From NCBI GenBank assembly GCA_001972305.1, contig BDDD01000018.1:806001-870000 (forward strand): 64,000 nt of DNA, given 5' to 3'. The translations under genes were made by a program, and so were the position numbers. This document shows positions 5,502-58,318 of this stretch, one piece after another; the first letter of the stretch is position 1; each line of letters starts with the position of its first letter. This stretch comes from Cephalotus follicularis (Eukaryota > Streptophyta > Magnoliopsida > Oxalidales > Cephalotaceae). Below the pieces are notes generated by a model. That model saw only the letters and a program-made list of their open reading frames with translations. It was not told the DNA's origin and made no database searches.

Positions 5502-7910
5502 TTTGATGACCCGTCCCTCATGATAACCACCTCAGACGAATCGCCCGGCAGGAAGGAGGAATTTCCCATCTCCTCCGAGCCAAAACAATGCTACAACTCA
5601 TGGAAGGGAAGAAACAAAAACAAGAAATGGCATAACTGTAAATAACCCTTACATAAAACCCACTCCAAAACTCACCGTATAACTAAAGGGCACACACAAC
5701 AACCACTGCCCAAACGCACCATTCCACTAAAGGAACATGCAAGCGGAGGGAGCCAAGGCAGAGAACGTAACACTACGTCTTGCCTGGGGTCCCATGCAGG
5801 GGATGCCAACACCACCCAACACAACACGACGTATCACAAACCAGGCCTGCACCTCCATCCTAAGACATGCCTTCCTCGGACGAGCCATCCTCGGGCATGT
5901 CCTCACTGGACGACTAACCTCGGACATGTCATCCCGGGCATGTGCTCCCCGAGCATGTCCTCCCCGGGCATGACCTCCTCGGGCATGACCTCCTCGGGCA
6001 TGTCCTCCTCTGACGTCTCCTCGGACAACATGTTCTCCTCGGACAGAGCCTGACAACAAGTGCCAGACCACGACATGAACCATCCCAACACTAAAAACCC
6101 TAAGGTCAGGACACGTGCCCCACAAGTTGACCCCCCACCCCGGGGAGATCCCCAAACCTGCCCGACCTCAGGTAACGTTACCGGTAAACAAGCAGAAGAT
6201 CGTAAAACAGCATTTCAAGTAAAAACACGAAATCTCTTCTTTAAACACAATAAATCACCTCAAGAACACGTTATATTATCATTCCAAAATAATATATATC
6301 TTGTTCACAAAATATCGTCCCTTGCTCAAAAGCCGAGGACCCATACAAAAGAATATCATTTCCTCCTCGGCCCGAGGACCATACAACAAAGGAATAAAAC
6401 CCATATGCCCCCATGAACGCATGCGAGAATGAGCCCGTGAAGCCGGCAGCTCTGCTCATCCCCCACAGACTACCTTGTCAACCCAAAAGACTGCCCTGGC
6501 AACCACAGCAGCTTCCTCTGCAAAACAACTGGGAGGGGATTAGTCCAAATGACTAGTGAGCAACAACAAGCATTCTCCAGAGTATCCACAACCACTGGAC
6601 GCAAACGGAAACATATATCAGGTCATACCCAACTGGGAGAAACAAGAATATATCAGGGGACAATAAAAGAATGTACAACTCAACCACATGACAACATCTA
6701 GCTCCTCGGAGCCTATCAAGAGAGTCAAATATCAACAAGTATAAGAATCCAATGGAAGATTATATCATCATCAATAAATAATAACCGTGTCGGGGACAAC
6801 AAATAAGGAAGAGGAAGACAAACACATATCACCACATCCCGTGGTCTGCCGTCATACACCATGACACCACACACACACACACATCTATCCAAGCCTCGCC
6901 TGCTAGAATCTATCCGGACCTCATCCGCTAGTATGTATACGAGCCTCAGCTCGCTATCCACCACAGTATCCGTGGTCTACCGCCATACCAGGCAAAACAC
7001 ACACCTATCCAGGCCTTGCCTGCTATGTCTATCTGGACCTCATCCGCTAGTATCTGTCCGAGCCTGAGCTCGCTCACCACAGTATCCGTACAACCATGGG
7101 AAAACCAAGAAACCAAGTCGTAAAATTCCGTGCACCCCTCATAACAGAGGAAAACCAAGGTATAAGGAGGGAATAATCAACAAATATAACAACACATCCA
7201 AGGAAAAAATACACAATCTTGAGGACCAACCGAGCTCTCAAGCTCACCCAGATCAAGAACACAAATATACAAGATAACCCGGATCCAAATCCCCAAGGAA
7301 AATATTCAACGAGAGGACAATAATAGGCACACGTAAATATCAAATAAAGGAAAGGGGAGAATGACCCACTCACAGAAACACCCCACAAGCTTTCGCCGAC
7401 CAACCCCGAGGTGCTCCGTCTCAGCAACGGGACCATTGTCTGCAAAACTAACACGAATCCACCCAGGAAGAAACACAAACACATACATAACCATAACATA
7501 ACTAGCCAAACCAGGCCATCATCCTCTTCCTCAGCCCGAGCATAATGTACCCCCATGCCCTTACCGAAACCAGAGAACGTAGGAGCTCACCTTCAAAGCT
7601 CAAAAGCAAGACAAAGATTCCAACGCTCGGCAAAGAAAGAAGAAGAAGGCAATAGCTCTCCCTTTCTTTCTCTGTCTCCAAAAGCTGAACTCACTTACCA
7701 AAAAGAACTACCAACTCCAATCAACTTCTTATCCCAACACAACTTTGGGAACAAGAAGCTTCCCCAAGAAGCTAACTATAAAATCAATATAATAACCTAA
7801 ACCATTCTTCTCCACATGTTTTAAATAAGCCACCATCCCACTTAATCCTTCCCATGAGCCAAACAAGGCCTTAAAATATAATCCTCTAAAAACAGGTACG
7901 GGGTATTACA
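5502..7910 (-). repeat. 5' LTR of element K
   Basis: Right copy of the K LTR, about 2.4 kb. Its minus-strand start is TGTAATACCCC, intact. It repeats the arrays of the left copy: 'cgggcatg(a/t)cctcc' units at about 5890-6030 and 'tccggacctc.tccgctag' units at about 6880-7060. Open frames in it arise from these repeats and are not genes. Confidence 0.88.
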
Positions 7911-11712: not shown

Positions 11713-12134
11713 TGTAACGCTTGGAATTTTCATTTAATGTATTAATGTAAATTGCTTTGTAATTCCGTGATGAATTAATGAGAATTATGGATTTCCAACT
11801 AGTTGTAATTAATTTTCGATAAATGGGTGTTAAAGAAATGTTGTCGAGTTGGAAAAATAAGGGAAAAGAGATGCTTGCACGTCAACGCCAAGAGGTAGCG
11901 TCGATGCCAAGGGACAATGAGGCACTTAAGGGACCTTGCCTTAAGGCTTCGATGCCATCGATAGGAAGAATAAGAAGGTAGGCGTTAACGCGATTCGTGG
12001 AGCCTGTTAGTGCAAAGGGAAAGAGTCAACGCATCAACACGTGTCTTATATGTTGACGCCAAAGTCTGTTGGTGGAGCAAGATAAGACACTGACACAAGA
12101 CCCGTGAAGGACATGGGAAAGACACTTTAACTCT
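11713..12134 (+). repeat. 5' fragment of the 3' LTR of element A
   Basis: The LTR begins TGTAACGC after the polypurine tract and is cut after 422 bases by the CACTA terminus. Bases 11880-12065 carry a loose array of 'GTCGATGCC/GTCAACGC/GTTGACGCC' units, the same kind of motif as in the other LTRs of this window. The rest of this LTR is not found beyond the CACTA element. Confidence 0.85.
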
Positions 12135-12770
12135 CACTACTAGAAAAAGGACATTTGCCGACCGCCAATGCGGTCGGGAAAACAATAAAGGCAGTCGGCG
12201 AAAGGTTTCCCCGACCGCGTAGCTGACCGCAATAGCGGCCGCTTATAAATGGGTCGCCGATTATAGCCCGACCGTTTCCGCGACCGCCTTCATCATTTTG
12301 CCGACCACATATGCGGTCAGGAAGGGAAGCAGTTGCTGTTGATCGGTGTCAGAAAATAAATTTTATGAGGGTTTACTGACCGCTCCGGCGGTCGGCCAAT
12401 GTTGTAAGCGGTCGGGAAATAAAATAAATTTGTCAAATTAAATTGCTTTTGTAATGGTTCACCGACCGCAATTAACGATCGGCGAATCTTGAAGCGGTCG
12501 GAGAATCAAACATAAATTGTGAAATTAAATTAGTTTTGTAATGGTTCCCCGACCGATATGGCGGTCGGTGAATTTTTAAGCGGTCGGTAATTAACGATAA
12601 TTTTTAAATTAAATTAATTTTATAAGGATTTGCCGACCGCTATAGCGGTCGGCAAATATTTAAGTGGTCAGGAATTTTCAAAATTTTTGAAATGGAATAC
12701 AATTTTACGAGGGTTCCTGACCGCCGTGAGCAGTCGGGAAAGATTGAAGCGGTCGGTAAATTAGAGTAAG
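12135..12770 (+). repeat. CACTA terminus and subterminal repeat array
   Basis: CACTACTAGAAAAAGG at 12135-12150 is the terminal inverted-repeat end. It is followed to about 12770 by roughly a dozen units of CCGACCGC and its complement GCGGTCGG, often paired as small hairpins with 4-12 bases between the arms and separated by A/T-rich spacers. In En/Spm-like elements such subterminal motifs bind the transposase. The pairing and density here fit that role. No coding sequence is seen. Confidence 0.85.
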
Positions 12771-13164
12771 AGAATTATATAAATTTTGCTACAATGGTTG
12801 TTGTGATCAGTCACTTTAGATCTATTATAAGTTAGATTGTTTGGTGGACAAGCAACCACTACGATGATTTGCAATTAACATTTTCTTTGATTTCTATGTG
12901 CTGATCCAAAGATTGCAAGTACGTGAGCAACCGTGTAAAAGAAAAATTGCCAATTCATTAGACAAAAAATTGACAGGAGTGAGTCTTTTTAACAAGCTTA
13001 TACCACTTGTTATACAATTTTTTGATATAATTATAAGAAATATGATCCACTCAAAATTTTCATCCTAAAATCTACAATATGTCAACAGATTTATAGCAAT
13101 TTGTGTACAATTAGGCTGCAATATATACATGACACTAGCAATTGCAATCTAGACAGTAATTAAC

Positions 13165-13276
13165 CTCCTTTTGTTCAAGTCTCTTATCCAGATCTTTGAG
13201 TTCCATATCCAATGTTTCTTGAAGAGAAGAATGTTCTAGCTCCCTTTTCTCATCTTCAATATCATCTACATATAAA
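13165..13276 (-). pseudogene. Captured exon of a KIN-4 (FRA1-type) kinesin
   Basis: On the minus strand a 112-bp exon is bounded by an acceptor (TTTTTCAG) and a donor (GTTAAT, weak). It encodes 37 residues including ELEHSSLQETLDMELKDLDK and RLEQKE. This heptad-rich sequence matches the coiled-coil stalk of plant KIN-4 kinesins (FRA1 family), as I recall it from family knowledge, where 'LDKRLEQKE' is characteristic. The motor domain is absent. It lies about 400 bp inside the subterminal array and is the fragment nearest the CACTA end. Orientation is the same as the other captured exons. Alternative: another coiled-coil protein. Confidence 0.68.
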
Positions 13277-13462
13277 CTGAAAAAATTAAACATGCATACA
13301 TTTACATATCTAGCTCAGAAAACACAAATAGATTCCAAGATCTTTAGCAAACAGAAAGATCATGCATGATGTATAAACATTTAGCTCGGTATAAGTCATA
13401 CTCCAAGAAGTGTTACAAATATAAACATTTAAATCAAAGTCAAGCAAGCAGAAAGTTCAACT

Positions 13463-14729
13463 GAAATAAATTCTAACTCTTAAATTCTCCCAAAAATCGG
13501 GCATGATGTATTCGTTTATCGGACTATGCCCCCTGTAATGAAAAACACAGTTGGTATATTTGGGCTCAGCCCTCAGCAAACCACACCTAAATCTAAATCA
13601 TATCGTTCTAATCTCAATTAATGATGGATTGATGAAAATCATATTTATGAGAAAACAGATATTGCTCAGCCCTCATATTTATGAGAAACTCATATTTTTT
13701 TTCTACATCTTGAGCGCATCCTATCACTGAAAGATGTGTTCTTACTGATGGGACATCTAACTTACCATCTCCTCCAATTGTAAAACATCCATAAAAAAAA
13801 AGCCAACACTGCAGCAAGAATACCAGTTGTTATGGTGCTCTTAACTGGAACTTGGGTGCATTTACTGATGTCTGAAAAGAACGAAGGCAGCAATCCATCT
13901 CTAGCCATCGACATTAAGATTCGCGGCTGAAGAAAAAAAGAGATACGTACAAAAATAGTGTATCTGTGCACTATTTCCACCATTGGTATACAAACAAGTA
14001 CAAATTATCTCACATGCAATGTAAGCAAGAATCTTCAAATGAAGCAATTATTTTATTTTAGAGAAGTTCACTCTAGCCAAAATCTACTTCAATACTGTGC
14101 CATAGTCAATTGAAAATAAAAGTAGGAGCTTTTTGCATACCTGAGCAAGAATCGAACCCATCAAACTTGCACAGAATGTTGTAACAGCTCCAGTCGTCAA
14201 TATATACCTGCAATCAAATGGAGTTAAAAATGGTCTTAAAGCATACAAATTCAAATAAAGGCCTTCATATTTCGAGGAGTAAGGTACCCGAACAAACTAC
14301 AAGCAAAATAATGTACTTACACTGGCCATTGCATCCCACAGGTAGGGAACGCAATAGAGATAGGGGTGTCCGGATCCAGGGCATAATACGTTACTAAGCC
14401 AACAATAACGGCGGATACAAGCATATACAAAACACAACATATGGACAAAGCTATCCCTATACCCAAGGGCAAATCTCGATGAGGATTCTTTACCTGTACT
14501 TATGAGTGAGAAAATTGGTCAATGGTAAGGTTCAAAACTTCTTAAGAGAAGCCAAGATTTCCCGAAATAAATTCTAACTCTTAAATTCTCCCAAAACTCC
14601 GGCATGATGTATTCGTTTATCGGACTATGCCCCCTGTAAAGAAAAACACAGTTGATATATATGGGCTCAGCCCTCAGCAGACCACACCTAAATCTAAATC
14701 ATATCATTCTAATCTCAATTAATGATGAA
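13463..14729 (+). repeat. Direct repeats of about 165 bp flanking the CAT fragment
   Basis: Bases 13463-13627 and 14564-14729 are nearly identical (by eye over 90%). Both run from 'gaaataaattctaactctt' to 'ctcaattaatgatg' and share 'gtattcgtttatcggactatgcc'. They sit on either side of the amino acid transporter exons. I do not recognise the repeated sequence. The arrangement suggests duplication around a capture or insertion event. Confidence 0.85.
13766..14493 (-). pseudogene. Captured fragment of a cationic amino acid transporter (CAT family), three exons
   Basis: Three minus-strand exons with GT-AG introns: 14321-14493, 14141-14207 and 13766-13926. They encode consecutive parts of a plant CAT-type transporter: 'VKNPHRDLPLGIGIALSICC', then 'YILTTGAVTTFCASLMGSIL', then 'PRILMSMARDGLLPSFFSDI'. 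The exon phases fit each other (the split Val codon at the first junction is restored). The family moves basic amino acids across membranes with about 14 transmembrane helices; only about 130 residues covering some three helices are present. In the last exon a run of nine T's shifts the frame by two before a segment reading MDVLQLEEM, which corresponds to the family's MDVSQLAGM. Not functional as a transporter. Confidence 0.9.
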
Positions 14730-14829
14730 TTCTGATTGTCCAATGAAGTTGCGTTATGAGACGTTTGTGTCAATTTTAAGAACATATTTGTTATATAGGT
14801 AAAATACTGATTCTCAATACATTCCCTAC

Positions 14830-15301
14830 CTGCATTCCAGGTCTCAGAATAAGAACAGTCCTACCATGTCGGTCATGAAAACCCGCTCTGTATACTTTTC
14901 CAGTCTCACCTTCAACAGCGACTTGACGCTGAAAAAATATATCATTTCAATGGTCAATGAAAGTCATATTCACCAAGATCAACAAGAAAATAGATCACCA
15001 ATCTGACAGATTGAGAAGGGCCTGTCATTGAACTAACTCCTGAAGGAAGGACTATTTAGAGCATCATTTTATTAGAAATTTGCTGTTGTAAGTAAACATG
15101 CAAGAATATAAAAATTTAACTTACCCAATGAATTTCGTCAGGCTTATAGGTGGATCTCCATTTAAGTGTCTCTTCCAACATTTTCTTTGATTTGTCAACA
15201 TTCCAACTTCGAGCTTCCAAATATCTCCTCAAACATGCATCAGTGCAGTACTGTGCACTTCGTCCAGATAGTTGACCGATTACAGCCTTAAGCTCCTTCA
15301 C
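14830..15301 (-). pseudogene. Captured fragment of a Sec14-like (CRAL-TRIO) protein, two exons
   Basis: The exons are 15125-15301 (59 codons) and 14830-14928 (33 codons) on the minus strand, both with clean AG and GT borders and both a whole number of codons. The first encodes the CRAL-TRIO N-terminal helix region: 'VKELKAVIGQLSGRSAQYCT', 'CLRRYLEARSWNVDKSKKML', 'KWRSTYKPDEIHW'. The second continues into the lipid-binding fold: 'EGETGKVYRAGFHDRHGRTV' and 'LILRPGMQ'. Plant Sec14-like proteins bind and exchange phosphoinositides. The start, the rest of the lipid pocket and the end are absent. Both exons are open without stops, which suggests recent capture or low decay. Confidence 0.86.
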
Positions 15302-15900
15302 CTGCTTCCAAATTAAGGACAAGTCTTATCCAGTAAGATGATCGTTTTTTTCTTCTATTGTAAAATTATAAAGTACCCAACATTGCCAATGTATAGTAAT
15401 ATAATTGAATGGAGATTTAAATAAGTATTTGATTATGCAGTAAGATCATCTTATTGTAGGATCTCATAACCAACTCCTAAATCATCCACTATAGATGTTG
15501 TATCCACACAAGCAGAATTTCCTACAAAAGGAGGTACAGAACCAAAAAATCAAGCCAATTCGATAGTAAACTATACAATATTGATGCAAATAGAAAATAA
15601 ACCTTGAAATGTAGATAGTAAAATCAATTTAAAGACGTACAACAGATGGGAAACAGGAAAATAAAAGGAGAAGCAGAAGAAGAATGAAGGAATGCACAAT
15701 TTGACATAGCCATCTTTACTTCTCACATGATCATTCTTAATTTGAATAGAAAATATTCAAAATGCAATCATTCTCACGCAAATATTTAGTCTTGCAAACC
15801 AGTCCCCACATTCAAATGCTAGCCATGTGGGCCTTCAAATAAAATGGTATTTCCTTTTTAATGGTGACAAAGACAAAATTTAAGGGTGAAATGAACTCAC

Positions 15901-16026
15901 TTTTCGCATCCATGAAGAAGGAAGAGGTCATCCCTATTTGCCCATCCAACTGAGATTCTGATGCAGCAGTATCATCTGCATCTGCTGATTCGGATCTTAC
16001 TTGCTCCCCAGTTGGGGTAGCCTTGT
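15901..16026 (-). pseudogene. Probable captured exon, gene not identified (I)
   Basis: A 126-bp minus-strand stretch is bounded by an acceptor (TTCTCTTAG) and a donor (GTGAGT). It is open in one frame, giving KATPTGEQVRSESADADDTA, then ASESQLDGQIGMTSSFFMDA. The acidic, Ser-rich composition and strong splice signals look like a genuine exon. I do not recognise the protein. It lies between the Sec14 and AGO10 fragments and has the same orientation, so it probably belongs to a further captured gene. Confidence 0.55.
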
Positions 16027-16279
16027 CTAAGAGAAGTTAAGAACTACAATAGGATCAACCATTGATCAAATATGATTAGCCTGTAATTAAAACAAAACAA
16101 AAATATCTTTGATGAATTTTGATTATAAGAACAGATGCCAAAGCTATTTCTCTCCATTCTAGGTATGAAACAGGACTAAGAATAAAGAAACCATTTACTC
16201 TTCCAAGGAAAATAATGGGAAGTAGAACAAATAGAAATTGAAGTCTTATAACAAGGAGAAAAAAAGGATACTAGCATAC

Positions 16280-16375
16280 GTAGTTAGTGACTTTTTCCTT
16301 TCTTTCCTTGGAGGTTTCCAATGCTCCATACCACCATCATGCTCCAATATAGTTCCTTTTGTAGAACTGAATAAC
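16280..16375 (-). pseudogene. Probable captured exon, gene not identified (II)
   Basis: A 96-bp minus-strand stretch between an acceptor (ACTTTGTAG) and a donor (GTATGC) is open in a frame reading LFSSTKGTILEHDGGMEHWK, then PPRKERKKSL. Its phase does not join directly to the exon at 15901-16026, so the two may come from different genes or an intervening exon is missing. The basic cluster near the end is the only feature I can name. Confidence 0.42.
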
Positions 16376-18511
16376 CTACAAAGTTATGAAAAATCAGAAA
16401 AGAAAAAGAAACCAGTTCAGTGAAGCAACGACACCAACACAGTTGATAAGCTATATTTAGAGGTCCATCTTTCAAGACTTGGTCACAAATTGGCTAAAAC
16501 CACATATAGCTAGCAAAGGGTCCTGAATTACATATGGAATAACAGGTCAAGTGCGTAACTTTTCGCATACAACGTACCCAACATAGGAAATAGACAACCA
16601 AAAATATGGATAGATTAGGCTTTGCAATTGAGATTCAGGTGATATTTATTTCAATTACTTAAGGATGGATTGTTTAGACACACATGGTAGGCGCCACTAA
16701 TTGAAAATTTTGTTTGCATTAAAACAGAAAAACTAGTATTATCTTTTGATGAGTAAGATGCATTCAGTGGCCACCAAAAACTAAGGGATGCTACCTCAGC
16801 ATATCATGCGTATACAATAGAAGCAGTAAAAATAAAGTAGAAGACAAAATAGCTTGCCCCAAATATTTTGCACAAAAGTGATAACACAACCTTATCCAAC
16901 CTAAAATGAGGTTACTCCATAAGTTGAGGGTAATATCATCATTTACACAACTTATATTTTCAACCTCCATGATTCTTTTTATGCATCACCATTTGGTAAT
17001 GCACATTTAGGCCTTAAAAGTTATGGTGAGGAACAGTGTTAAAAATGTAAGTGTTCTGTGATCGATACAAAATAAACTATTCGTTAAAAACGTCGAAAGA
17101 AAATAATGTTCAGATTGATGCTAGCCAAGTTATTTATAATCCTTCGGGTTTAGCAATAATATAACTTTGATACCATGATAAAACTTAAAGTCCATCTCAA
17201 CAACATTTTTGTAAGGAGGAGGACTCTCTCAAATATTTAAAGTAGACAGATATTTAATATCCAGCAAATGTGAGATAGATAGTCATTTCAACAGAAAAAA
17301 TGCAGAGGAATGTGATTCTTATATGACTTAAATATTTCTATGAAACATGAGAATGTTGTTCAATTCAAAATTGGGGGCATCCTAATATTAAAAAATGAGA
17401 TATCGAAAAATATGTTTTCATTTCACTCAAAATGATAGCTTGAACAAAACACACCTTAAAAGGATATACTTTTAATGTTTATTGTGTAATCACTTGTCAA
17501 ATTTGACAGATGTTTGGAATAGTTTCTTGTTACTTAAAAAGAAAGATGAATATTATTCTACTGCATCTTTTTAACTCCATCACTAGAAAGGGTGTAAATT
17601 TGAGCAATAAATCGGTAGATTGATGGCTTAATAGTGGAGAGAGTTGTAATTGTGGATGAAGACTAGGAATGAAGCACGAACACACTCCACAAATCTTGAA
17701 AAATTAGGCAGGATAAGAAGGAGACACATTAATAAATAAATGAATAAATACTCATTCATTTTATAAATGTATATCAAATTGGTCAATATTTGACTTGCTC
17801 CTTTATAATACAATGTGGATCCATGTGATAGCCGAAACATGTCCCAAGGAATATCTGTGTCCAAGAATACAGGGGCTTGGGGTGTCACTGTCTCTTAGGT
17901 AACCCCAAGTTAGAGTTCATCATGTAATTCAGCCTTAAACTATTACAAAACACCCTTTTACAACTTTGACACTACTTTAGGTATATCTTTGTTATCAAAT
18001 ACTTTATTCATTTAAATAAGTATAAATACTAATAATAATTATAATGTCCAGATTAATTATTAGAATGTGATAAATCACCAAACAAACAGTAAAATATATT
18101 ACTTGTTAATGTTATGGATATGAACCGCAAAACAAAATTGGTATAGCACCATTATTAAACACTTAAAAGGATATCTACTTTTAAATTCATGTCAATTTCT
18201 GTCATTTTACACAACACTTTCTTGTACATGATTACCAAACACATATATTTGGTCACTCATGACACTTCTGATTACCAAACAAATTACTATATTTGGTCAC
18301 TCACGACACTTCTGATATTATTTTACCACACATTTTCAACTATAGCACAACAAAACAGTTTCCGCACTACATTACCAAACACTCTCTCTCTTCCACACTA
18401 CTATGGAGGTGTACATTGTTGATATAAGATGAAATAAATGAACTTAGATAGAGATAGAGAGTACAAGAACATGTTCGCATAAGAAGATTAGAAGAACAAG
18501 TAACAACTTAC
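16376..18511. other. A/T-rich stretch inside the CACTA element, no gene recognised
   Basis: About 2.1 kb of A/T-rich sequence between the captured exons, with no convincing long reading frame. A local duplication at about 18226-18316 contains two copies of a unit of about 48 bp ('gattaccaaaca...atatttggtcactca.gacacttct'). The bases 17800-17900 read on the minus strand as 'TPQAPVFLDTDIPWDMFRLS'; I cannot link this to a family and treat it as unassigned. Much of the stretch may be intron or flanking sequence captured with the exons. Confidence 0.5.
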
Positions 18512-18720
18512 TTGGGACCATTGACTCCATTCTCTTCATTGTGGAGCTTAACGGTGAACTCCTTCCAAGCAAAGGAAAGCTCACCCGCTGTGTACAGACT
18601 CTTCTTGCCATCATAGCCAGGCGGTCTCCTTCCCAGGTCAAGATTCTTTATGTAGCTCACTAACTCTGTCATAATATTTTTGTTTACTGTTGTTGATGTC
18701 ACCTCAGGAGTTATCGTAAC
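18512..18720 (-). pseudogene. Captured exon of an ARGONAUTE gene (AGO10/ZWILLE-like)
   Basis: A 209-bp minus-strand exon with a strong acceptor (CTTCTTGCAG) and donor (GTAAGT), open throughout. It encodes 'ITPEVTSTTVNKNIMTELVS', 'LGRRPPGYDGKKSLYTAGEL' and 'FAWKEFTVKLHNEENG', ending NGPK. This is the N-terminal domain of plant Argonautes (PEVTS, YDG.KSLYTAG). 'LGRR', 'GELPF.WKEFTVKL' and 'NGPK' point to the AGO10 type rather than AGO1. AGO10 sequesters miR165/166 in meristems. PAZ, MID and PIWI are all absent, so no Argonaute activity is possible. An RNA from this fragment would share sequence with the host gene. It lies just 3' of the transposase gene, in the same direction. Confidence 0.87.
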
Positions 18721-18931
18721 CTGCAAGAAGCAGAAGAAAACATAGCAAAAAGGCAACCAAACAATAAGAACAAATATGAAATTCAAATATCAAAATTCAT
18801 AAATGTTGTCACAAGAAAAGGACAGCATGAAAACAGTATCTTATTCAATTTCCCCTGCAATTTAACAACAAAAAAGCTTTGACGAATGTTCTCATCTAAT
18901 CATCAGCACAATAGCGCGCATCATCTCGATC

Positions 18932-21050
18932 CTAATCATCATCATCCTCATTATCATCATCATCATCATCATCATCATGCTGTGACCGATACATATCAAC
19001 ATCTGGGTACGGAGAAGGCGGGTCATGATAAGCACGCTGCCGAGAAGGGGTAGGCTGACCAAATTGCGCTGGAGGAGCTGTTGGGTGAGTAATCCGGTGT
19101 GGAGGACCAAACTGAGGATCGTATGAAGTCTGCTATGATGACGAAACAACAGGAAAAGCAGCCGAGTGAGGACCAACACCAGGATCAAAGTGTGTAGTCG
19201 CATTTGGGGTACTGTGCGACACTCCAGGATATGACCCTCTAATATGCGTTGCAAACATGTCCTGAATAGTTGCAATCTGCGCGCTCATGGCTGCCATAAG
19301 TTCCTCACGCAGTCCTCCAATATGTCGTTGAACCACCTCCTCCACGCTCGCATCAGGCACACTAGGAGTATGATTAGGACCACCATGAACAGAAGCTCCG
19401 CTTTCTACACGATGATCATTACATGATGATGAGCTCAATTGATACTTCTTCTTTGCCTTTTTAGCATTGATAAAATTTCCAAGGCCACGAATTAACCCCT
19501 TCTTCGGCTTTCCCACTGTCTCCAACCACCTGTCCAAGTCAACCACCTTCGCAGGTGGTTGTGATGATGCCCCCGCCCCCACCCCCCCTTCTCCTCCTCC
19601 TCTCATTGCAGCATCCGCCTTCGGCTTTTTGTACGTATTCTGCAAAGAAACAATAAAAAAAATTATGTATGTTATCCCTCAAGATTTGCATCACAAATAA
19701 AATCATATTCACTTGATACTAAATTCACTGTAAGTATAACTTACAAAGCAAGCAGCAACTTCTTCACGAGGCTTAGTAGCACCTTTGGGAGTGTGAAATT
19801 TATTAAAAAGATCTGGCAAGTCTTCATTATTTTTCTCCTAAATACAAAAATAAAAAAACAATACAAGTTAATGGATAACAAGTAAGAAATAAATGGTTAA
19901 TAAATATTAAGTTCTCAGTTATGTACCGCCTCCTTGAGCCGTTGGCTCATACTGCGATTTCCTCCAGTGTAGGGAAGATGACTTGCACTAGACCTATTGT
20001 TCTTATGCCTTGAAGAGGTAACCTACCAGCGGGGATCCAACCATATATCCATCAGTTGCTCCCAAGCTGGTGGGGGAACGATTCTTGGAGGGAACTGCCT
20101 GCAGGCCTCTGTGAGGTCATTTACTTTTGCAAGCATCTTCGACTCATTCCTCAAATCGCACATTCACTTTTTGTAATTAATTTTGTAGTACTGGTCAAAC
20201 ATTGCCCGAGCTTTGCCTGGCGAATCAAAATAAAAAAAAAACTCCTACAAATACAAAATATTTTAAAGTTGTTAGCAAACTATGAATGCGGGACAGACAA
20301 CTGAATAATACATGTATACAACGTGACAAAATGAAATGTTAATCAATTGACTTACACATAACTTCTCCCACAGCTGATCACGCTCTTCCTGAGGCCATAA
20401 ACTGTGTTTGTGCCAGGGTTATAGCAACCTACTTCTAAACAACGCGCCGATCTTGGATTTAACTTCAGGGACTGGAAAGCCACTGCAAAATCAAATCAAA
20501 AAATTACGGTGATTATATACACATGAGATTCATCGTCATTAGAATAATTTTTAATCCATATGTATATCTACCTCTCTCCAACGATCCATACATACACCCG
20601 ATCCTCCGGCGGCTATGCCGGAAGATCAATACCTACGGTGGGTCCTCTAGTACGGGACTGAGAACCTACAAGATATTGTGAACCAAGTGAAGTGATTGAA
20701 AATATTTATATATCCATTATATTCATAAGTTTAACAAGTTTTCCTTTTATATTGAAGGAAAATAACATACCACTGGCAGTGGATGTGGAGGGATGGTCCT
20801 TGTCACTAACTCTGCCTGAACTGGATGCATGAGTGGAGGACCCCGCCACCTGGGTCAGAACACCATCTGGCTCAAGACCTATATAACATCATAAAGCATG
20901 TGGATTATCAAAGAATACGAACATAATTCATATATGTAAACTTATAAATCTAAGTCATTAATTTTGTATTAAAGAATTGAATTCAACAACATATGTACCA
21001 CTGGTGGTGCCTGTGAATCCATGCTCCCCATCATCAGCATCAGAAGACAT
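18932..21050 (-). pseudogene. CACTA transposase-type gene (Ptta/En/Spm family, Transposase_24-like)
   Basis: Multi-exon minus-strand gene from ATG at 21050 ([18 protein letters not shown]) to TAG at 18932. Recognisable pieces: 'SRTRGPTVGIDLPA', then 'LWPQEERDQLWEKLC' (about 20350-20480), then 'AWEQLMDIWLDPRW' and 'HKNNRSSASHLPYTGGNRSM' (about 19930-20080). The last is the signature of the plant Ptta/En/Spm transposase family. After 'EKNNEDLPDLFNKFHTPKG' comes a low-complexity C-terminus with 'KGLIRGLGNF', ending in an acidic tail of D repeats encoded by an ATC/GAT microsatellite at about 18935-18977. At least five in-frame stops. The family is found beside the TNP2-type transposase in CACTA elements; no TNP2 is seen here. 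Confidence 0.82.
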
Positions 21051-22030
21051 AAGGCAGTCTTCTCAATATCTCCTTCCCTCACCCTCAACTGGTGATATCC
21101 TGTTCTCAGATCAAGCTTTGAGAACACTCTCGCTCCTTGCAACTGGTCGAACAAATCCTCGATGTGGGGTAAAGGATACTTGTTCTTGATAGTTGCCTTG
21201 TTCAGCATTCTGTAATCGATGCAGAGCCTCATCGACCCATCCTTTTTCTTGACAAACAGTACAGGTGCTCCCCACGGTGAAACACTGGGTCGTATGAAAC
21301 CCTTATCGATCAGGTCCTGTAACTGCAATTTCAGCTCTCTTAATTCTGCAGGAGCCATTCTGTACGGTGCTTTCGAAATAGGAGATGTACCTGGTGTAAG
21401 ATCGATAACAAACTCCATATTTCTTCTCGGTGGCAAAGATCCCAAGTCATCCGGAAATACATTTGGAAATTCACACACCACTGGGATCTCCTCCAGGCTC
21501 AAGCCTTTTTCTTTTCTCCGATCAATCACATGAGCAAGATATCTTTCACATCCTTTCTCGAGATACCTCAACGCACGGACGAAGGATATGATCGGTGTAG
21601 AAAACCCCTTGTCTCCCTTAAACTGGAAAGTAGTACCATCGGGCAGACGAAAATCAACCGTCTTGCTGTAGAAGTCCATGTAGGCATGATGTGCTGACAG
21701 CCAATCCATCCCCAAAATCACATCGAAGTCACGGATAGGTAATACTATCAAGTCCGCGTACAAGGATATGCCTGCCATAGACATCTCACAACCCCTATAT
21801 ACAGTGTCTGTATACATGGAAACTCCGACAGGTGTGCTCACATCTAAAGTATACGACATACTGTCAGGTGTTACATCTAAACATGATGCAAAATGTGATG
21901 AAATAAAGGAATGTGATGCTCCAGGGTCCATCAATACTCTAGCAGCAAAACCATAAATATACAGTGTACCTCCAACTACCGTGGTAGACTCCAGAACCTC
22001 TGTCTGTGAAAGGGTAAAAACTCTACCTTT
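21051..22030 (-). pseudogene. pol of element B (protease and partial reverse transcriptase)
   Basis: Minus strand. Protease: [13 protein letters not shown] near 21920. The linker carries '[20 protein letters not shown]'. Reverse transcriptase starts near 21350 with '[20 protein letters not shown]', '[15 protein letters not shown]', '[15 protein letters not shown]' and 'REGDIEKTA'. After that the RT match ends, before the catalytic FxDD box, so the enzyme could not work. The frame is otherwise open from about 21934 down, the best-preserved RT start in this family here. Codons after the junction belong to the CACTA gene. Confidence 0.9.
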
Positions 22031-23160
22031 CGCAATGCCCTTGCCGGTGTCCCCTTCGCTGTGAAGGCCCCGCTGCTGCTAGCTGGTCCGGTAGGTGCTG
22101 TATCCTGACTCTTCGGGCAATCTTTCATTGAATGGCCAGATGCCCCACACCTCAAACATAGCCCGTTCATCCTCCAACAATCCTTCTGCAAGTGGCCCTT
22201 CTGACCACAGTGATAACAAGCTCCGGTTCCCGCATTACTCCCCTGACTAAGAGTCCCCAGTGTGGCAGTCTGTCCAAATCTGTTCTTCGAGGATTTAGTC
22301 AGAGAACCACTTCCTTGCCATTTCGAAGAAGCTGGTCTTGTCGGGTTCTGTTTAATTTGTTGTGCCCGGGCCCTCTCTGCTCAGTCCTCACTGGATATGC
22401 TCTCCAGCAATCTCGCCTTTTGAGCGACCTCAGAAAAAGTACCCAGCTCCATAGCCCTAATCCTCGACCGAAGGTCCGGTCGCAAACCCTTCAAAAATCT
22501 CCGTATCTTTTTCACATCATCAGTTACTAGATATGGTGAATGTCTGGATAGCTCCATAAACCTGGCTTGGTACTCAGCCACAGTCATCTCTCCTTGCCGT
22601 AACTCAAGAAGCTTTGTCTCTCTCCGTTCTTGCTCCATCCGAGGTACATAAGAATCGAGGAACTCTGTCTGGAATCTCTCCCATGTAGCATCAAGTCCCA
22701 CTGACTCCCACTTCGCTTTGACCATCTCCCACCAGTGAGTGGCCTCTCCCCATAGACGGTACACGACAAATTTCAGTTTCTGAGTATCGGTACAGTCCAT
22801 CTCTGCAAAAATCTTCTCCAAGTCTTGAAGCCATCTTTCAGCAATCGTGGCATCAAGTTCTCCCCGGAAGCTAGGTGGATTCTGTCTCATAAACCTTTCG
22901 ATATCCCTCCCAAACTGACTACCATCCTCTCCCGGGCAGTGATCGGGAGCTCTATGTTGCGGTCGAGCTTGCGCGTAATACTGGCGCATCTCCTCCGCAT
23001 TGGCCCTATTAAAGGCCATCTGTTGCTGGAAGTAGTCCGCAATTCGGGTCATCGGGTCCCTATAGTCTTGGGGGACAGTCACTCCTGGCGGCATGTTTGC
23101 TGCCTCAGGGGCATTGGCTCCAACAGCTCTAGCCCTTCCACGAGTTCTCCTTCGGTCCAT
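22031..23160 (-). pseudogene. gag of element B
   Basis: Starts at ATG 23160 (MDRRRTRGRARAVGANAPEA). The gag domain is open for 259 residues, with 'NPPSFRGELDATIAERWLQD', 'ATHWWEMVKAKWE' and 'LRQGEMTVAEYQARFMELSR', and is the best-preserved gag in the window. It stops at 22381 (GAG GAC TGA). The frame continues beyond into a Ser/Thr-rich linker and two intact CX2CX4HX4C zinc knuckles near 22110-22220: CYHCGQKGHLQKDC and CLRCGASGHSMKDC. A frameshift separates it from the protease. Confidence 0.9.
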
Positions 23161-23256
23161 TTGTTCCTCTAAGAAGGACGATGGTTAGTCACGACTTTAG
23201 GAAAACAATTTATTCATTGCCAAGGAAAGTATCCTAGCTAAGCATATATGGAATAT

Positions 23257-23268
23257 GCTCTGATACCA
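23257..23268 (-). other. Primer-binding site of element B
   Basis: The plus strand reads GCTCTGATACCA, the reverse complement of the tRNA-iMet site, three bases inside the LTR end at 23272. Confidence 0.93.
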
Positions 23269-23271
23269 CAT

Positions 23272-26121
23272 TGTCACGCCCCCGTTTCAACAACATAGAC
23301 AACATATAGGTGGTAAGGCAATCAACATAAAAAATAATCCGGCTCATGCAAAATTACCAATAAATAAAAACCATCGATAGCGGAAGCAACAACATAAATG
23401 AGCCGAATTTAAATATGCATCACGCATCCCATACTACGTGATGCCCAACAAGTTTATAAATAAACCCAATCATAACTGTCGATCGCCCAAAACGGAGCAT
23501 GAATAATACAGTACGAGATAACAAAATATCCTTTGTTATAAAAACCGAATAACATGATCAATGTTCAATAACCCAAATACATAAATAAGAGAGATAACAA
23601 ATCTTCTCTTTAAGTCTCCATGCATGCTCCACATCATGTCCACTCCGTCAATCTGTTACAGTAGGGGTTAGCCTTTGTCCTCACTCGGCTAAGTGAATAA
23701 ACCCATAAATACAGTTTGAGTCATAGGATAATGAGTATCATGAATGAATGCATAATGATGAGCCATGACATGTAATTTTCACAGTAAGTATACCTCCGTA
23801 TGTATATATAAAAATATATGCATGCTCACAGTACAAGTATAACTCATAAGTTATATCAACACAAGCAGTAAATATGTTCCCAAAAAGGAACCAGACAAAC
23901 CAATCGTCATGACCGTCGCCACCTCCTGGCCCCAACGTCATGCACTCTTACTCCATCCCCGTTTACGAACGGTTTTGGAGCAAGTCCTCCGTAAGTTGTT
24001 TATCACGGCGGCTAAACCAACAGCAAGTTACTAGCTCAGTGGCTAAGTAATCAACAAGTTATTAGCACGGTGGCTAATAATCAACAAGTTATTAGCACGG
24101 CGGCTAATAATCAACAGGGACAAGCATTGCACAGTACAAGTCAAGCAATAAAATATAATTACTTGATCAAATATATTTGTTTAAACTATATTATTCCGTT
24201 CACAAGTTGTGATAAGTTATAAAACTTAAAACAATACATTTCTCCGTCGTTGGAAATACTTCGCCAATCATTTCAAAATATATACATTCATATGTTGACA
24301 AAAATACATTTTCGCACAATACACTTGATTTTTTAATCAGTCCTTTAAAATATTTCTCCGTCTTTGGAAAATACTTTCCCAGCTAGCTCAAAAATATATA
24401 AAATCATACGTTGACAAATATACATTTTCATACACAAACGATCATAATAATCATGCAAGCTTTTCAAAATGGTTAACATTTTTAGGAAGCAACCATAATG
24501 CAAATCACAGTAAAAATGCAACATATGTTCAGAATGCATCTAGGTTCATTCCTAGAGTCGTTTCGGGTCTAGCGGGTCCCATTCGAGTGAAATTCTACTG
24601 ATCAGGGGAAAAGGCATCGATGTCTATCCTTAAGGCGTCGACGTATTTACACTAAGGCGTCGGTCCCATGTACAAATATTCCCAGGCGTTCTTGGACCAA
24701 AGACGTCGATGTCTTTACAAAGACGTTGATGTATTTATGATACCAGAGAGTATCAGTTCGCGAGTCTTGATTCTGGAGGGTAGAATCCGGCCTTTTAATC
24801 CTTCACGTAAACGAATCTCGCTCTCTCAACGTGTAAGGCATGCCACTGGTTAACAGGAATATAACCAGAACATCAATTCGAAACCAACAGGTGATTCCAA
24901 GTGGCTAAATGGCCATCTGAAATGAACATTACAGTTCTACAATTACCCAAAAAAGGCGTCGATGTCTTTACAAAAGTATCTATGTCTTTCACGTTTTCAC
25001 ACGAAGGCATCGACGTCTTCACATAGACGTCGATGTCTTTACCACCCAGAACGTCTTTTCCACAGTTTTAACACACCAAGCCATTATCAAATCCATCCTT
25101 TACACAAAAAAATTCACGTATTCATGTAATCGTACATGCATGATTAACTCCGTGTATCACAGTAACACCACAACAAGTCCAAAATCATAATTCAACCATT
25201 AACATGAAATTCATCATGTTATTCATTAACTTAAAACCCAAAATGCATGTATAAATCTATCACTTTTCCCTACCTTATTGTTCCAAGTTAGGAACTGGAA
25301 GTTCCACCTCTTTGAGTTCCCAAGTTCTGGCCACCAGCAGCTCCAAGGTTCCCTCAGCAACTGCTACCCACGAGCTCCAATCTCTAGCTCCAAGCAAACT
25401 CAACAATGGTGGCTCTCACACTCACTATTTTCCTTCCTCTCTTTCCTTTGGTGTTTTAAAACGCGAGAGAGAAGTGGGGAGGGTCGTTCCTATGCAGGTG
25501 GCTTCCCCCCAACATCCTTCTCCTTACATTTAATGGGCACTCTCGTGCTCTCTCCCTCTTTCCAGATTCTGCACTTTTCTTTTTGTTTTCTTTCCTTCTT
25601 TCTTTTGCAGGTTGCATGTGAGGATGGTATATTCCTTTGCATGTTCCATGTGAGGGGCATGTTTGGAGCATGCCAGGCAACACACCATCATGATCCATTC
25701 ATCACAATGCACTTGTAAAGGTGTCTGGTAAGGCCCCCAAAGATCCCATTGCATGTTACTCTGTCAGTGAAAAACGTGACAGACGTTCTTTACAAAGGCG
25801 TCGATGTCTTTCATTAGACGTCGATGTCTTTTTCCTTTTTTGTAAGAAGGTGTTGATGCCTTTTGTCAATGTCGATGTGCATGCCCCTGCATTTACGTGT
25901 ACCTCGGATCCCATAGGCGTCGATGTCTTTCCAAAGACGTCGATGTCTTTACCCCAAAACAGCGCAATTTTAAGATTTGACATACACATTTCCTTCCTTA
26001 ATCAATATTTAGGGTTTAGAGACCTCTTTTGAGTTTGAAACTTCAACATTCTCATTAATTCAAGTTTAAGATTACATCATAAATCGAAATATTACATTCA
26101 GGAAAAATACCGGGCGTTACA
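23272..26121 (-). repeat. 5' LTR of element B
   Basis: 2850 bp. On the minus strand it starts TGTAACGCCCGG and ends GGGGGCGTGACA, next to the primer-binding site. It is homologous to the F LTRs: the shared block 'cttagccgagtgaggacaaaggctaa' (complement at about 23670-23700) is also at 29675 and 39638. Motif arrays of the AAGACGTCGATGTCTT type lie at about 24615-24740, 24955-25045 and 25785-25955. The open plus-strand frame at 25278-25718 is antisense to LTR leader sequence and is not a gene. Confidence 0.9.
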
Positions 26122-26498: not shown

Positions 26499-29277
26499 TG
26501 TAATACCCTGATTACCTGTACGTGTTTTTCTTACGGATTTTATCTGTTTCGTTTAAGTAATTGTATGTTTACGTTGGGTTTATGTTTTTGGGCTGACTGA
26601 TACTAGCCTTAGTTTTGGGCATATTAGTATGGACATTGTTGTTGGGTAAATTTAATCAAATTATTACTACTGCAAATCAATTTATAAATACTTAATTATC
26701 ATCTTATAATTGATTTTATTAAATTGTATTTTCAAAATTTGTTTTTTAAAAACAAAATCCTTTATCTTAATTACTTTCCTTCTCCCTCTCAAACTCTCTC
26801 TCCCGTATCTCTATCTCTCCAATCTCCCTCTCCCGCACAACTCTATCTCTTTCCTTCTTGTCACCCTGAAAATCAGCCTATATTCCTTATCCAGCAGATT
26901 GGTTTTTCCCTTTTTGCTATCCTCTCCCATTTGGTCTCTTTTTGCTATATATGTGTGACAATGCCATGAAACCAGCCACCTCTTTCTGTGTGTTGCTACT
27001 GCCGAATTTGCTGAGCAATTGGGGCTGTGATTTTTGTGTTTACATACTCCATTGATAAGGTTAGTTTCATCAAGGTTCAATTCGGTAATTGTTTCATTGG
27101 TATTGCATGGCACTGTCAAAACTTTGAGTGTGTATTTCTCTCTTTTGATTCTGTCGAACAACTGTGTTCTTCTTCAAATTGTGTCACCATTGAAGGTTAG
27201 TTTGTTTCCCTACTGTGATGGTTATGTGTTAGTGTTATCAAGGAATTGTTTTGCCATGTATAGGTTGCTAGAGAAGGAGTAGTTTTGAATTCTACCTTCC
27301 TGTTTTTCTGTAAAAAATAAATCATGTGTTTGTGGCAATCTGTAGACACCTAGGGAGTGTTATATATTCTGGTTTTGATGTATGTGATCATCATAAACGG
27401 ACAGAATTGGAGCTATGCAATTGTATGTCATGGTTTAAGTTTTTCTGTCACATTAAATAATTTCTGTCAATAGGTCTCTGTTGAATTCAGTGTTATAACA
27501 TGGTTTTACATGCCATACAAAGTTGTTTTTAATGTTTGTAATCTTCCGGTATTGAAAAATCCGAGTATTGGCAACTAGATTGCACAAAACTGCATTAAAC
27601 TACTGTTCTGTCGCTAAGAACAGACGACTGCCCATATGAACAGTCGGCTGTCTATTTTAAGTAGTCGACTGTCTTATGCAAACAGTCGACTGTCTTGGGT
27701 TGAGTAGTCGGCTGGACCACTGATTCAGTCCACTGCTTGCATGTCCAAGTTGAGTAGTCGACTGGCCCTGTTGTGTAGTCGACTGCCACCCCTTGATTAG
27801 TCGACTGGATTCTTGAAACAGTCGGCTGGTTTGTCCTGTAAACTTTTGTTTTCATCCATTTGTTCTTCCGATGAATCCGGGTCTATTGTAAACATCATTA
27901 TGATTCTGTTTTATGCCTAAAATGAATTTTAGACCCTTATTTGAACATTGTTATGTTGTATAGATTATTGTGCTACGTGAGGCAAATTAAGTTTACCGGA
28001 TATTCGTAAGCTAGTCTGTGATCGCACAAGGTACGGATCTTCGTTTCTTGAAACACTCTTACTGATTCAGTTCTGTTTTGAGAATAAATACAGATTCTTT
28101 GTTTTGGTTTTATCTGAATTGAAGCTGTTTTGTTTTAATGAGATGTATGTATATTTCTTTTTGGACATCTGGTTTATTTGAAATAAATTCAGTTTTATGA
28201 ATATGCCCTTTCAGATTATGAACTCCGTTATGTTTGGGTTTTGAAATAAAGTCAGTTGATATTTTATTGAAATGAATATTTTTCTGGCTTAATGAATTCA
28301 GCTATGTCGTGGAAATGTCTCTTTATTGTGAAATGAAAGAGTTGCGTTTTGATTATGAAAGTATACGTGAAACTATATCGTTTGAGAACGATTTATGATC
28401 ATGTTTTGGGAAACCTTTCTATGAATTTTAAATTGATTTGATGAAATCAAAGTTTTTGAAATGGTGAAATACTGAGCTTTTATAACCACCTATGGGGGTA
28501 CCATAGGCATGCTGTGGGCCTGGCACGGGGGCATGACACTTTCCGTAATGGTGTAATTAGTTTACGGCGTCTCTCTGGGATATCCTTGGATAGGATTTGT
28601 GATAGAGGCGTATGGATCGATCCTAGTTATATGTTTTTGGGATATGTTATGATATGGGAATTGTATGTGTAGTGTCGTACACTGCAATTCTTTTGGCAAT
28701 GTGGGTGTCGCAAACCCCTTGCTACTATGTGTTTCTGATATGTTATGGGTTTTGGTGCTCAGTTATGGAACCTATGTTTTGGAAAGGTATGCTTTATGGT
28801 TTCAAGTTATGAACTTGGTTTATATGTTTCACCGTGGGCATTTAGAAAGTATGTTTAAACTATTTTATTGCTTAAGATTTCTGTTTTAAAGTTCCTTTGA
28901 AATCTTCCTGCTTTAAAATGTCGTTTACTGTTTTATATTCTATATTCGTACTGAGGTTTGCTCAGCCGCGTTTTTGTTTCCATGCGGCAGGTTATCAGGA
29001 GCGACGGGGCAATGTGTGATGAGAGTGACTCCCTTATGTCTGAGGATCGTCTAGGAGCCGATCCCTTTATGTTTATGTGGTCATAGTGGACCCGTTTAAT
29101 AAACAATATGTTATTTCAGTTTATGACTTTTGGTATTATGAATAAGTTTCAGTATGTTATTGGTTATGCTTTAAACCATCACGTTTTTAATAAAGATGAG
29201 CTTTTCTAGTATGTTATGTTATGTTAAGTTTCTGTAATAGGCACCTGTAGCGACTCCCACAGCTCAGGGGTGTTACA
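26499..29277 (+). repeat. 3' LTR of element C
   Basis: 2779 bp, TGTAATACCCTG to GGGGTGTTACA, following pol and a polypurine tract. It does not look like the A/B/F/G LTR families apart from the general TGTAA...TTACA ends. At 27600-27840 it carries about ten copies of AGTCG(A/G)CTG, a palindromic 9-mer when A is in the centre. The next base starts an internal piece of the F LTR, so C is embedded in or recombined with F's 5' LTR. Confidence 0.88.
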
Positions 29278-29772
29278 AAGTCATTATACTTACTGGTTGA
29301 CTTGTATTGTACGGTGTTTGTGCTTGTTGATTATTGGCCGTTGTGCTAATAACCTGTTGATTGTTTAGCCTTCGTGCTAAGCAACCTGTACAGAGGACTT
29401 GCTTCAAACCGTTCGCAAACGGGGATTGGAGTAAGAGTGCATGACGTTGGGGTCAGGAGGTGGAGACGGTCATGACGACTTGTTTGTCTGGTTCCTTTTT
29501 GGGACATACTTACTACTTGTGTTGATGTAGCCTTATGAGGTTATACCAGTACTATGGACATGCATATACTTTATACTTGTATATACTATGATATATATAC
29601 TGTACTGCATCATAATGCATTTATTCATGTTGCTCATTATCATATACCTCAAGGTGCATTTATGAGTTTATTCACTTAGCCGAGTGAGGACAAAGGCTAA
29701 CGCCTACTGTAACGGATTGATGGAGTGGGATTTCATATGGAGCAACGCAAGGAGACTTAAGGAGAAGACTGA
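29278..29772 (+). repeat. 5' LTR of F, first piece
   Basis: Matches 39250-39735 of the 3' LTR, including 'tacggtgtttgtgcttgttg' and 'gccgagtgaggacaaaggct'. The LTR start is missing. Its last five bases, ACTGA (29768-29772), are the target duplication of element E. Confidence 0.9.
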
Positions 29773-32919: not shown

Positions 32920-33240
32920 ACTGAGTTGTTCTCTTATTTTATGTACTGGTTTACTGCACAATGATTATGGTAACTGGATTACTGTAACGTGGTTTATTTC
33001 TTTTGTACTGTATTATCACGCTCCGTTTATGGGTGATCGACAATGTTGTTGGGTTTTATATAAACTCTGTGGGTATCACGTAGTATGGGATGCGTGATAC
33101 ATATTTTATTTCAGCTTACTTCATGTTATTGCTTCTGCTACTGAAGGGTTTTGTTTTTACGTAATATCGCATAAGCTGAATTATGTTGTGTTGATTGCCT
33201 TACCTTTTATGTTGCCTTTTGGAAAACGGGGGGTGTGACA
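32920..33240 (+). repeat. 5' LTR of F, second piece
   Basis: It continues the LTR after E and ends GGGGGGTGTGACA at 33240, four bases before the primer-binding site. It matches 39730-40049. Confidence 0.9.
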
Positions 33241-44607: not shown

Positions 44608-44639
44608 TTTATCAAACAGTTTGAGTGCACAACACAAAG

Positions 44640-45227
44640 TGTAAAAAGAGGAAGGAAAAAGAGAGATTGATGGAAGACACTAAACCTTGATCACGACAAA
44701 GGATGGAGTAGATGATGCTTTGATGACTAGAAAAAAAATTTAGAGAGAAAAAAAAATTTTAGACAAAAAGTCCAAAGAGATAAAGTGAGAATATAAAACA
44801 GTCGATGTGTTTTTATGTAGAACTCGATGACTGAGATAAAGACGTCGACGTGATTTTAAACGCATCGATGTGTTCTTAAAAAAACTTAGTTAAAAATATC
44901 GATGTGAAATAAAACGTTGCGTTTTGAAAAGCATCGACATGTTTTTAAAGAGATCGACGTGTTTTATAAAGACTTAAAGAACATCGACATTTTATAAAGA
45001 GATCGACGTTTTCACAAAACTACATCAATGTTTTTTAAAAAGAAGTCGACGTGTTTCGCCAAAAACAGAACAATAACAGAAAAACAGTAAAAAAAATCAA
45101 CTTCAAAAAAACATCCAATCAATCAAATCATTCAAACAAATAAACATTCATTCAAACTCACATAAACCTAGTTCTCTTCTAAACTTTGAAAAAGTATTTT
45201 CATCTAAAGGTTTGGTAAAGATATCAG
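44640..45227. other. Spacer between pol and third ORF of H, with motif array
   Basis: A/T-rich non-coding stretch. From 44800 to 45060 it holds about ten units like CATCGATGTGTTTT and GATCGACGTGTTTT, a variant of the LTR motif placed outside the LTR. Otherwise nothing is recognised. Confidence 0.7.
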
Positions 45228-48167: not shown

Positions 48168-48199
48168 CTACAAAACAAATGAATTTAGGTTGAAGATTT

Positions 48200-52200: not shown

Positions 52201-52289
52201 AGTTTGCGCTCGAGAATAAGTATTCCCGAAAATAGCTACCCTCGCATTTTCGCTGAGTAAATCCCATGACGGGAAAGAAAGTCTGAGGG

Positions 52290-52580
52290 TACATGTGCAC
52301 TCTCATAAAAAGTTAATTATTTGCGAGAGCAATTTCCTCTTGTAAATAAAAGTGCTCTCAGGAATACTCAAACTTTTTACGAGAGCTAAATATCATTTGT
52401 GAGAGCAGAGCTCTAACTAATTATTTTAGTCAATTTAATGACCATCGCTTTTTGGGAGAGCTGATTTTTTATTTGAGAGAGAGTTGCGCTCACAATTGCT
52501 TTGGTCAATTACATAAGTTGACTTTTATTTACTAGAGAGAGAACTAGTATTTTCCATGCATATGCTCTCGCAAATACTTT
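52290..52580. repeat. GAGAGC / GCTCTC short-repeat array (possible CACTA subterminal region)
   Basis: Eight or more copies of (T/C)G(C/T)GAGAGC or its complement in about 290 bp of A/T-rich sequence ('ttgcgagagcaat', 'gtgctctcagg', 'acgagagctaaat', 'atgctctcgcaaat'). Density and alternating orientation resemble the CACTA subterminal array at 12135-12770, and it lies 3' of a similar transposase C-terminus. No clear CACTA end was found. Confidence 0.5.
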
Positions 52581-54135: not shown

Positions 54136-54166
<31 letters not shown>

Positions 54167-58305: not shown

Positions 58306-58306
58306 G

Positions 58307-58318
58307 TGGTATCAGAGC
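58307..58318 (+). other. Primer-binding site of copia element I
   Basis: Perfect TGGTATCAGAGC after 'gcttcccaaaag'. Confidence 0.85.

Follow-up and report, generated by a model that had tools for sequence, protein, structure and literature searches.

The window analysed here, a stretch of 64,000 nucleotides of Cephalotus follicularis DNA (contig BDDD01000018.1, positions 806,001 to 870,000), contains at positions 12135 to 21050 what is most likely a truncated, decayed member of the CACTA transposon superfamily with multi-gene capture. Between its transposase gene, TNP1, and the one terminus detected, the minus strand carries, with introns kept, exons of an Argonaute, a Sec14-like protein, a CAT4-type cationic amino acid transporter and a probable kinesin-4, together with two nameless exons, X1 and X2. 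In our reading, to which we assign a probability of about 0.83, the locus represents the 3' side of an old CACTA element, now immobile, that took up pieces of host genes 3' of TNP1, decayed and was joined to a Ty3/gypsy retrotransposon.

The features that connect the locus with the CACTA superfamily are a terminal repeat starting with CACTA at one end, subterminal repeats and a decayed TNP1/Ptta gene. The terminal repeat, CACTACTAGAAAAAGGAC, occupies 12135..12152 on the minus strand, on the element's 3' side relative to TNP1, and in a pattern search of the window CACTACTAGAAA was exact at 12135. The degenerate CACTACTAGAAA pattern is not significant by itself (5 matches in the window against 3.0 expected), and the CACTACTAGAAAAAGGAC terminus matches once in the window (18 bases, at most 3 mismatches). 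Directly after it follow about 600 bases of subterminal repeats (12153..12762), recognized by repeat finding and self-match, in which GCCGACCGC / GCGGTCGG units recur at a spacing of about 85 bases. In particular, 12 of the 14 GCGGTCGG words of the window fall within 12158-12756, the expectation for the whole window being 0.27, and the remaining words are isolated, at 1291 and 9912. We filed the locus as a truncated member of the superfamily because it is cut at 21050/21051, before the other end; it does not qualify as a Pack-CACTA element, since it has one CACTA end only and a TNP1 remnant, although host gene fragments are present.

The TNP1 gene, of the Ptta/En/Spm type, extends over 18932..21050 on the minus strand in a model of seven exons with five premature stops, of which, in the native phases, exons 3, 4 and 7 have one each and exon 5 has two. 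Joined exons 5 and 6 match PF03004 (Transposase_24) with an E value of 8.7e-6 in Pfam, at 26.4 bits against a cut-off of 28.7, and exon 7 matches the C. follicularis protein P0121 with 71% identity (E 8.5e-94), the match extending upstream past the modelled acceptor of exon 7, through sequence as it stands in this copy. Exons 2 to 6 gave no match to P0121, and exons 1 to 4, which had no family match of their own, are based on splice sites and reading frame alone. We take P0121 to be a TNP2-type protein; its N-terminal Transpos_assoc part gave no convincing tblastn match, and no window search was made with the TNP2 profile PF02992 itself. The stretch expected to hold TNP2 is lost. At 21050/21051, the cut open frame of a gypsy reverse transcriptase runs straight into TNP1 at its first ATG, and a deletion or an assembly join at this point would account for the failure to find TNP2 and the second end. 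At its opposite side, TNP1's own stop comes before the captured fragments.

The Argonaute exon (18512..18720, minus strand as for all exons below) covers part of the N domain and matches PDB entry 7sva (E 7.4e-23) and PF16486 (E 1.2e-8). It appears to be AGO10-like: Argonaute 10 was the best match in a PDB list with no other plant Argonautes to choose against, every other entry being of the types numbered 1-4, which we take to be animal proteins. The Sec14-like fragment comprises a CRAL_TRIO_N exon (15125..15304; PF03765, E 5.2e-8) and a CRAL-TRIO exon (14830..14928), with a best PDB match at E 7.1e-4. These two exons share 58 of 60 and 33 of 33 residues, respectively, with P0122, that is, 91 of 93 (98%), and the next proteins reach 85%. 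P0122 is a Cephalotus CRAL-TRIO protein on a 655-kb contig, marked as partial and seemingly complete except for its start. A probable third Sec14 exon (14732..14755) agrees with residues 94-101 of P0122 in 7 of 8 positions, and a longer tblastn match, weak at E 8.7, has 8 of 13 identical. The three CAT4-type exons, a (14321..14493), b (14141..14207) and c (13766..13926), are consecutive and belong to a vacuolar type of transporter; exons a and b were placed by PDB and tblastn matches and by their splice sites, and the three together match PDB entry 9hjk over residues 232-365 (E 4.3e-62) when a frameshift in exon c, at a run of T, is bridged in the query.

The exon at 13165..13265, bounded by a TGTAG acceptor and a GTTAAT donor, probably encodes a kinesin-4 coiled coil: it matches Pfam KIF21A_4th weakly (E 4.5e-4, 20.4 bits against a cut-off of 33.1) and had no PDB match, and its KIN-4 name is partly an assumption of ours. 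X1 (15901..16026) and X2 (16280..16375) were recognized by their splice sites and open frames, X1 having 48% GC against 34% for the region, and searches of Pfam, NCBIfam and PDB gave no usable family match for either. Among 241 compared proteins, there was no strong match to X1, X2, the kinesin and Argonaute pieces or the 168-bp repeat described below. A composite protein search that included X1 and X2 brought up Sec14-type proteins; the Populus protein P0001, considered as a link between X1/X2 and Sec14, was rejected, as it consists of two Sec14 copies in tandem. All named exons have GT donors and AG acceptors, with the sole exception of the third Sec14 exon, which is cut and has no AG acceptor. 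On similarity, we would regard three unrelated host genes as firmly named and a fourth, KIN-4, as probably so.

Further copies of the CAT fragment occur in the Cephalotus proteins. A composite protein search that included this fragment gave 1874 matches, of which the best 120 were listed, some without a species; among the matches listed, the Cephalotus proteins P0002, P0003 and P0012 ranked 2, 3 and 12, rank 1 being a Sec14 protein. Over 134 positions, our copy is identical to these three at 120, 120 and 115 positions, respectively, and to 23 other plant CAT proteins at 100-107. In a FastTree phylogeny of this copy and 26 of the 120 listed proteins (the 3 Cephalotus partials and those 23), the four Cephalotus sequences form one clade with a support of 0.994, and all four share H at position 5 and S at position 86, found in 0 of the 23 others. 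Furthermore, P0002 and P0012 read on into intron sequence common to this copy. P0050, the sole long Cephalotus CAT protein among the matches listed, is placed elsewhere in the tree; with 120 of 1874 matches listed, a full-length parent may exist among the others. Judged by these comparisons, the copies would fit an amplified fragment, and CACTA-driven amplification is not thereby proven. By themselves, the Sec14 and CAT matches would point to C. follicularis as the most likely host.

Much of a preliminary description of this DNA, made from its letters alone, is thus confirmed. It had proposed a CACTA terminus and a Ptta/En/Spm-type gene, which the terminus at 12135, the subterminal repeats, PF03004 and P0121 bear out, and GT-AG introns kept in the pieces, which the splice-site listing supports for all but the cut third Sec14 exon. 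Its two exons without a name are still nameless after the Pfam, NCBIfam and PDB searches, and the other genomic copies that it called for exist for two pieces, as the Sec14 gene encoding P0122 and the three partial CAT proteins. Its count of at least four unrelated genes stands firmly for Argonaute, Sec14 and CAT and only as a probability for KIN-4, given the Pfam score below the cut-off.

The junctions around the CAT fragment may record how it arrived. A 168-bp direct repeat is present in two copies, one to the left of the CAT fragment (13463..13630) and one between CAT and Sec14 (14564..14731), 95% identical, and the third Sec14 exon is cut where the second copy begins. At the repeat/CAT junction, a filler (13639..13688) contains the 16-bp word TCATATTTATGAGAAA twice, at 13639 and 13673, and between them the 12-bp word GCTCAGCCCTCA, which is also found in both copies of the 168-bp repeat. 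Within 12800-18890, there are 20 exact repeats of at least 12 bases, many of which stem from the 168-bp and other named repeats; 100 shuffles contained 3.2 on average, and the longest exact repeat in those shuffles averaged 12.3 bases. Non-overlapping 14-mers repeated at most 60 bases apart number 6, 3 in the filler and 3 at 18244/18288, and any at all occurred in 2 of 300 shuffles. We interpret the filler as a trace left by repair synthesis during which the template was switched. The exon-like part of the 168-bp repeat had no usable match in Pfam, NCBIfam or PDB; a match to cytochrome bc1 subunit 8 was too weak (E 1.4) and was not used. Separately, 18229-18400 holds recurring ATTACCAAACA words together with a near-perfect duplication of 29 bp, resembling a fragment of a miniature transposon inside the captured region.

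According to the course of events that we favor, genomic DNA pieces of unrelated host genes would have been taken up downstream of TNP1, probably successively, with other loci serving as templates when excision gaps were repaired faultily; the element would have decayed afterwards, and a deletion or rearrangement would have linked TNP1 to the broken gypsy element. Capture by this element, repair copying and the stepwise order are what we infer. Abortive gap repair is the mechanism reportedly put forward by Rubin and Levy. PMC8978399 refers to Rubin and Levy for capture, and PMC8903248 and PMC13317346 propose, for Pack-CACTA elements, tandem insertion followed by re-mobilisation. The present data decide neither for gap repair nor for tandem insertion and re-mobilisation.

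Several points weigh against this reading. A second CACTA end was not found in the whole window, searched with the 18-base terminus (at most 3 mismatches) and the subterminal word, and both the position of the captured pieces between two ends of one element and the common origin of TNP1 and the terminus at 12135 are inferred. The protein search with TNP1 returned P0121 as its sole protein, covering exon 7 alone. P0002, P0003 and P0012 are annotated as partial and end at or just past the same exon. Composite protein searches, whose length limits would exclude full-length proteins, brought up no parent for the Argonaute piece or for the kinesin piece. Lastly, the filler could be due to chance, the longest exact repeat in the shuffles reaching 20 bases at the extreme, or to a later event.

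To describe the one-strand layout independently of homology, we scanned for open frames between AG and GT with a pyrimidine-rich acceptor, at seven settings with 40 shuffles each; the settings and the donor list were picked with the exons already known. At all seven settings, the minus strand yielded 6-9 merged exon-like stretches and the plus strand none, against per-strand means of 0.45-3.8 and maxima of 2-7 in the shuffles. X1 and X2 were recovered at every setting and are therefore probably real exons, and the kinesin exon was recovered at the looser ones. The scan missed the Sec14 exon at 15125..15304, matched CAT exon a from an internal acceptor and added, at three settings, an unassigned minus-strand stretch at 17662-17576. 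In control regions, it gave 6 plus and 7 minus stretches at 52000-62000, 0 plus and 2 minus at 43000-49000 and none at 26500-29300; thus, it also fires elsewhere in the window. For the three plus-strand frames of 12760-18890, neither Pfam nor PDB gave a match at E values up to 0.1, a null result that is weak, since the corresponding Pfam scan of the minus-strand frames found Argonaute and CRAL-TRIO only and missed CAT and kinesin; with PDB, the plus strand was searched by frames and the minus strand piece by piece. Moreover, the plus strand has more A than T in 17 of the 18 bins of 12001-21000, in agreement with introns on the minus strand.

An arrangement of this kind might have been kept by selection or by the capture mechanism, if sense pieces were spliced into read-through transcripts from the transposase promoter and antisense pieces were lost through transcript ends or silencing. 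We consider this unlikely. The strand bias of the scan, the A excess and the mostly canonical splice sites of the named exons speak for it, as does the soybean element Tgm-Express1, whose exons enter chimeric mRNAs by splicing (PMC1947982). However, only four to five independent units are available, and the probability of a uniform orientation matching that of TNP1 is 1/16 for the four named fragments and 1/32 with X1/X2 as a fifth unit; the shared orientation is statistically weak and was judged after the fact, the scan settings likewise being chosen post hoc. The five stops in TNP1, the CAT frameshift and the out-of-frame joins between fragment exons (3 of 8) argue against a chimeric protein, and the cut Sec14 exon without an AG acceptor also counts against selection. 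Between different pieces, with X1 and X2 counted apart and the native frames set by hand, 2 of 5 joins are in frame against a chance expectation of 1.7. Skipping the repeat and the cut third Sec14 exon would bring the Sec14 and CAT exons together in frame, which could be chance. A present coding function of the fragments is most unlikely, and we see no evidence of selection on a chimeric protein. Little credence can likewise be given to a more specific proposal, namely, that this CACTA family captures pieces in Cephalotus only in the transposase sense, through template-switching repair coupled to or filtered by transcription, with the 168-bp repeat and the filler as footprints of the switches. 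The preliminary description was correct in that all the pieces lie on the minus strand, like the transposase gene, as the named exons and the scan agree; its suggestion of selection or of a mechanism favoring one read-through chimeric transcript finds no support, the stops, the frameshift, the missing AG and the out-of-frame joins speaking against it. Its interpretation accordingly survives as regards CACTA, unrelated genes, introns and one strand, and is unsupported and improbable as regards selection or a one-way mechanism.

The pieces could also have arrived inside another transposon, a Helitron or Pack-MULE with gene pieces nested in the CACTA element, and maize Helitrons are described as taking up several gene fragments stepwise (PMC3288121). 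Nonetheless, we hold this to be very unlikely: no Helitron 3' end (GC-rich hairpin followed by CTRR) was found in 12135-18930, where decayed ends could escape, apart from a weak match at 18491 that depends on a relaxed stem (expectation from shuffles 0.17), and exact inverted 14-mers separated by more than 300 bases are absent from the same interval. Two matches resembling a target-site duplication with a terminal inverted repeat were seen; one splits the CAT fragment, and the other consists of the filler word plus the copy of it that lies in the repeat. Somewhat less remote, and still improbable, is that the pieces and TNP1 are unrelated debris of separate events and that the terminus at 12135 comes from another CACTA element. 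The single terminus in the window and the heavily nested surroundings would suit such debris, but the pieces form an ordered run on one strand from TNP1 to the terminus, with no convincing ends of other transposons between.

Multi-gene capture by CACTA elements and the chimeric splicing of captured exons have been published (PMC1947982, PMC8903248 and PMC5105172), and CACTA gene capture is covered in a review (PMC13317346). The closest parallel among these, Tgm-Express1 of soybean, is a CACTA element in which pieces of five unrelated host genes are present with exons, introns and intact splice sites; different from the Cephalotus element, which retains a decayed TNP1, lacks one end and is known from DNA alone, it measures 5.7 kb, lies in an F3H intron and has proven chimeric transcripts (PMC1947982). 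The Pack-CACTA elements of Arabidopsis, rice and maize likewise combine CACTA ends with host coding DNA, and in maize no other Pack type has as many distinct loci per element, but they are described as non-autonomous and were found by both ends, whereas our element has a TNP1 remnant and has lost one end (PMC8903248). In Ipomoea nil, the Tpn1 family takes up genic regions and can give rise to chimeric transcripts; its catalogued copies, likened here by description and not by sequence, differ in having been found by both ends and in having their interior replaced (PMC5105172). In Chenopodium, Jozin CACTA elements carry transposase genes and captured gene fragments, the latter 5' of ORF1 and not 3' of TNP1 as in Cephalotus (PMC8978399). 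As for orientation, no bias was found in the passages of PMC3288121, which describe stepwise capture by Helitrons, and the phrase "same orientation" in the excerpts of PMC8903248 refers to neighbouring insertions; the term CACTACTAGAAAA was not met in the literature searched.

Many-gene capture by CACTA elements is already known, and it is the one-way layout and the repeat-flanked junction that merit a closer look. With this locus, a carnivorous plant from the Oxalidales probably joins the species in which CACTA elements shuffle exons. Different capture mechanisms have been put forward for gene-capturing CACTA elements, and a fragment that is flanked by repeats and has a likely parent gene as well as several other partial copies in the same genome would make the junctions readable at the level of single bases. 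Should capture on one strand recur in many copies, chance would not suffice to explain it.

The element is embedded in retrotransposon sequence. Beyond its cut end lies the truncated Ty3/gypsy element (21051..23592, minus strand), running from gag to the middle of the reverse transcriptase, with RVP_2 and a partial RVT_1 and with long terminal repeat (LTR) sequence from about 23272. From there to 26121, a 3' internal part of minus-strand gypsy sequence is followed by an LTR and then by a 5' internal part, with outer sides apparently truncated, a layout expected from LTR-LTR recombination or from insertion of a one-LTR circle. On the other side, the terminus at 12135 stands about 420 bases into the apparent 3' LTR of a plus-strand gypsy element whose pol ends at 11667; we take the stretch before 12135 for an LTR because of its TGTAACG start. 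The remainder or a second copy of this interrupted LTR (approximately 11713-12134) was sought in the window, and none was found.

Farther to the left, direct repeats of about 2.4 kb (1429-3895 and 5504-7908), 90% identical, lie inside a gypsy gag-pol (321-1406 and from 7930 onwards) and probably represent a long-LTR retrotransposon nested in another retrotransposon. An Rfam scan of the window gave nothing, and the tRNA scan gave one tRNA-Thr (AGT) only, at 61393-61481 (ARAGORN, bacterial code), with no Rfam match above the gathering score. To the right of the element, short AGTCGACTG / AGTCGGCTG words form a tandem-like run at 27620-27840, recognized by eye, and 29309-29772, 32920-33240 and 39269-40049 make up a probable gypsy LTR pair, 94-96% identical, whose 5' LTR is split by a 3.1-kb insertion.

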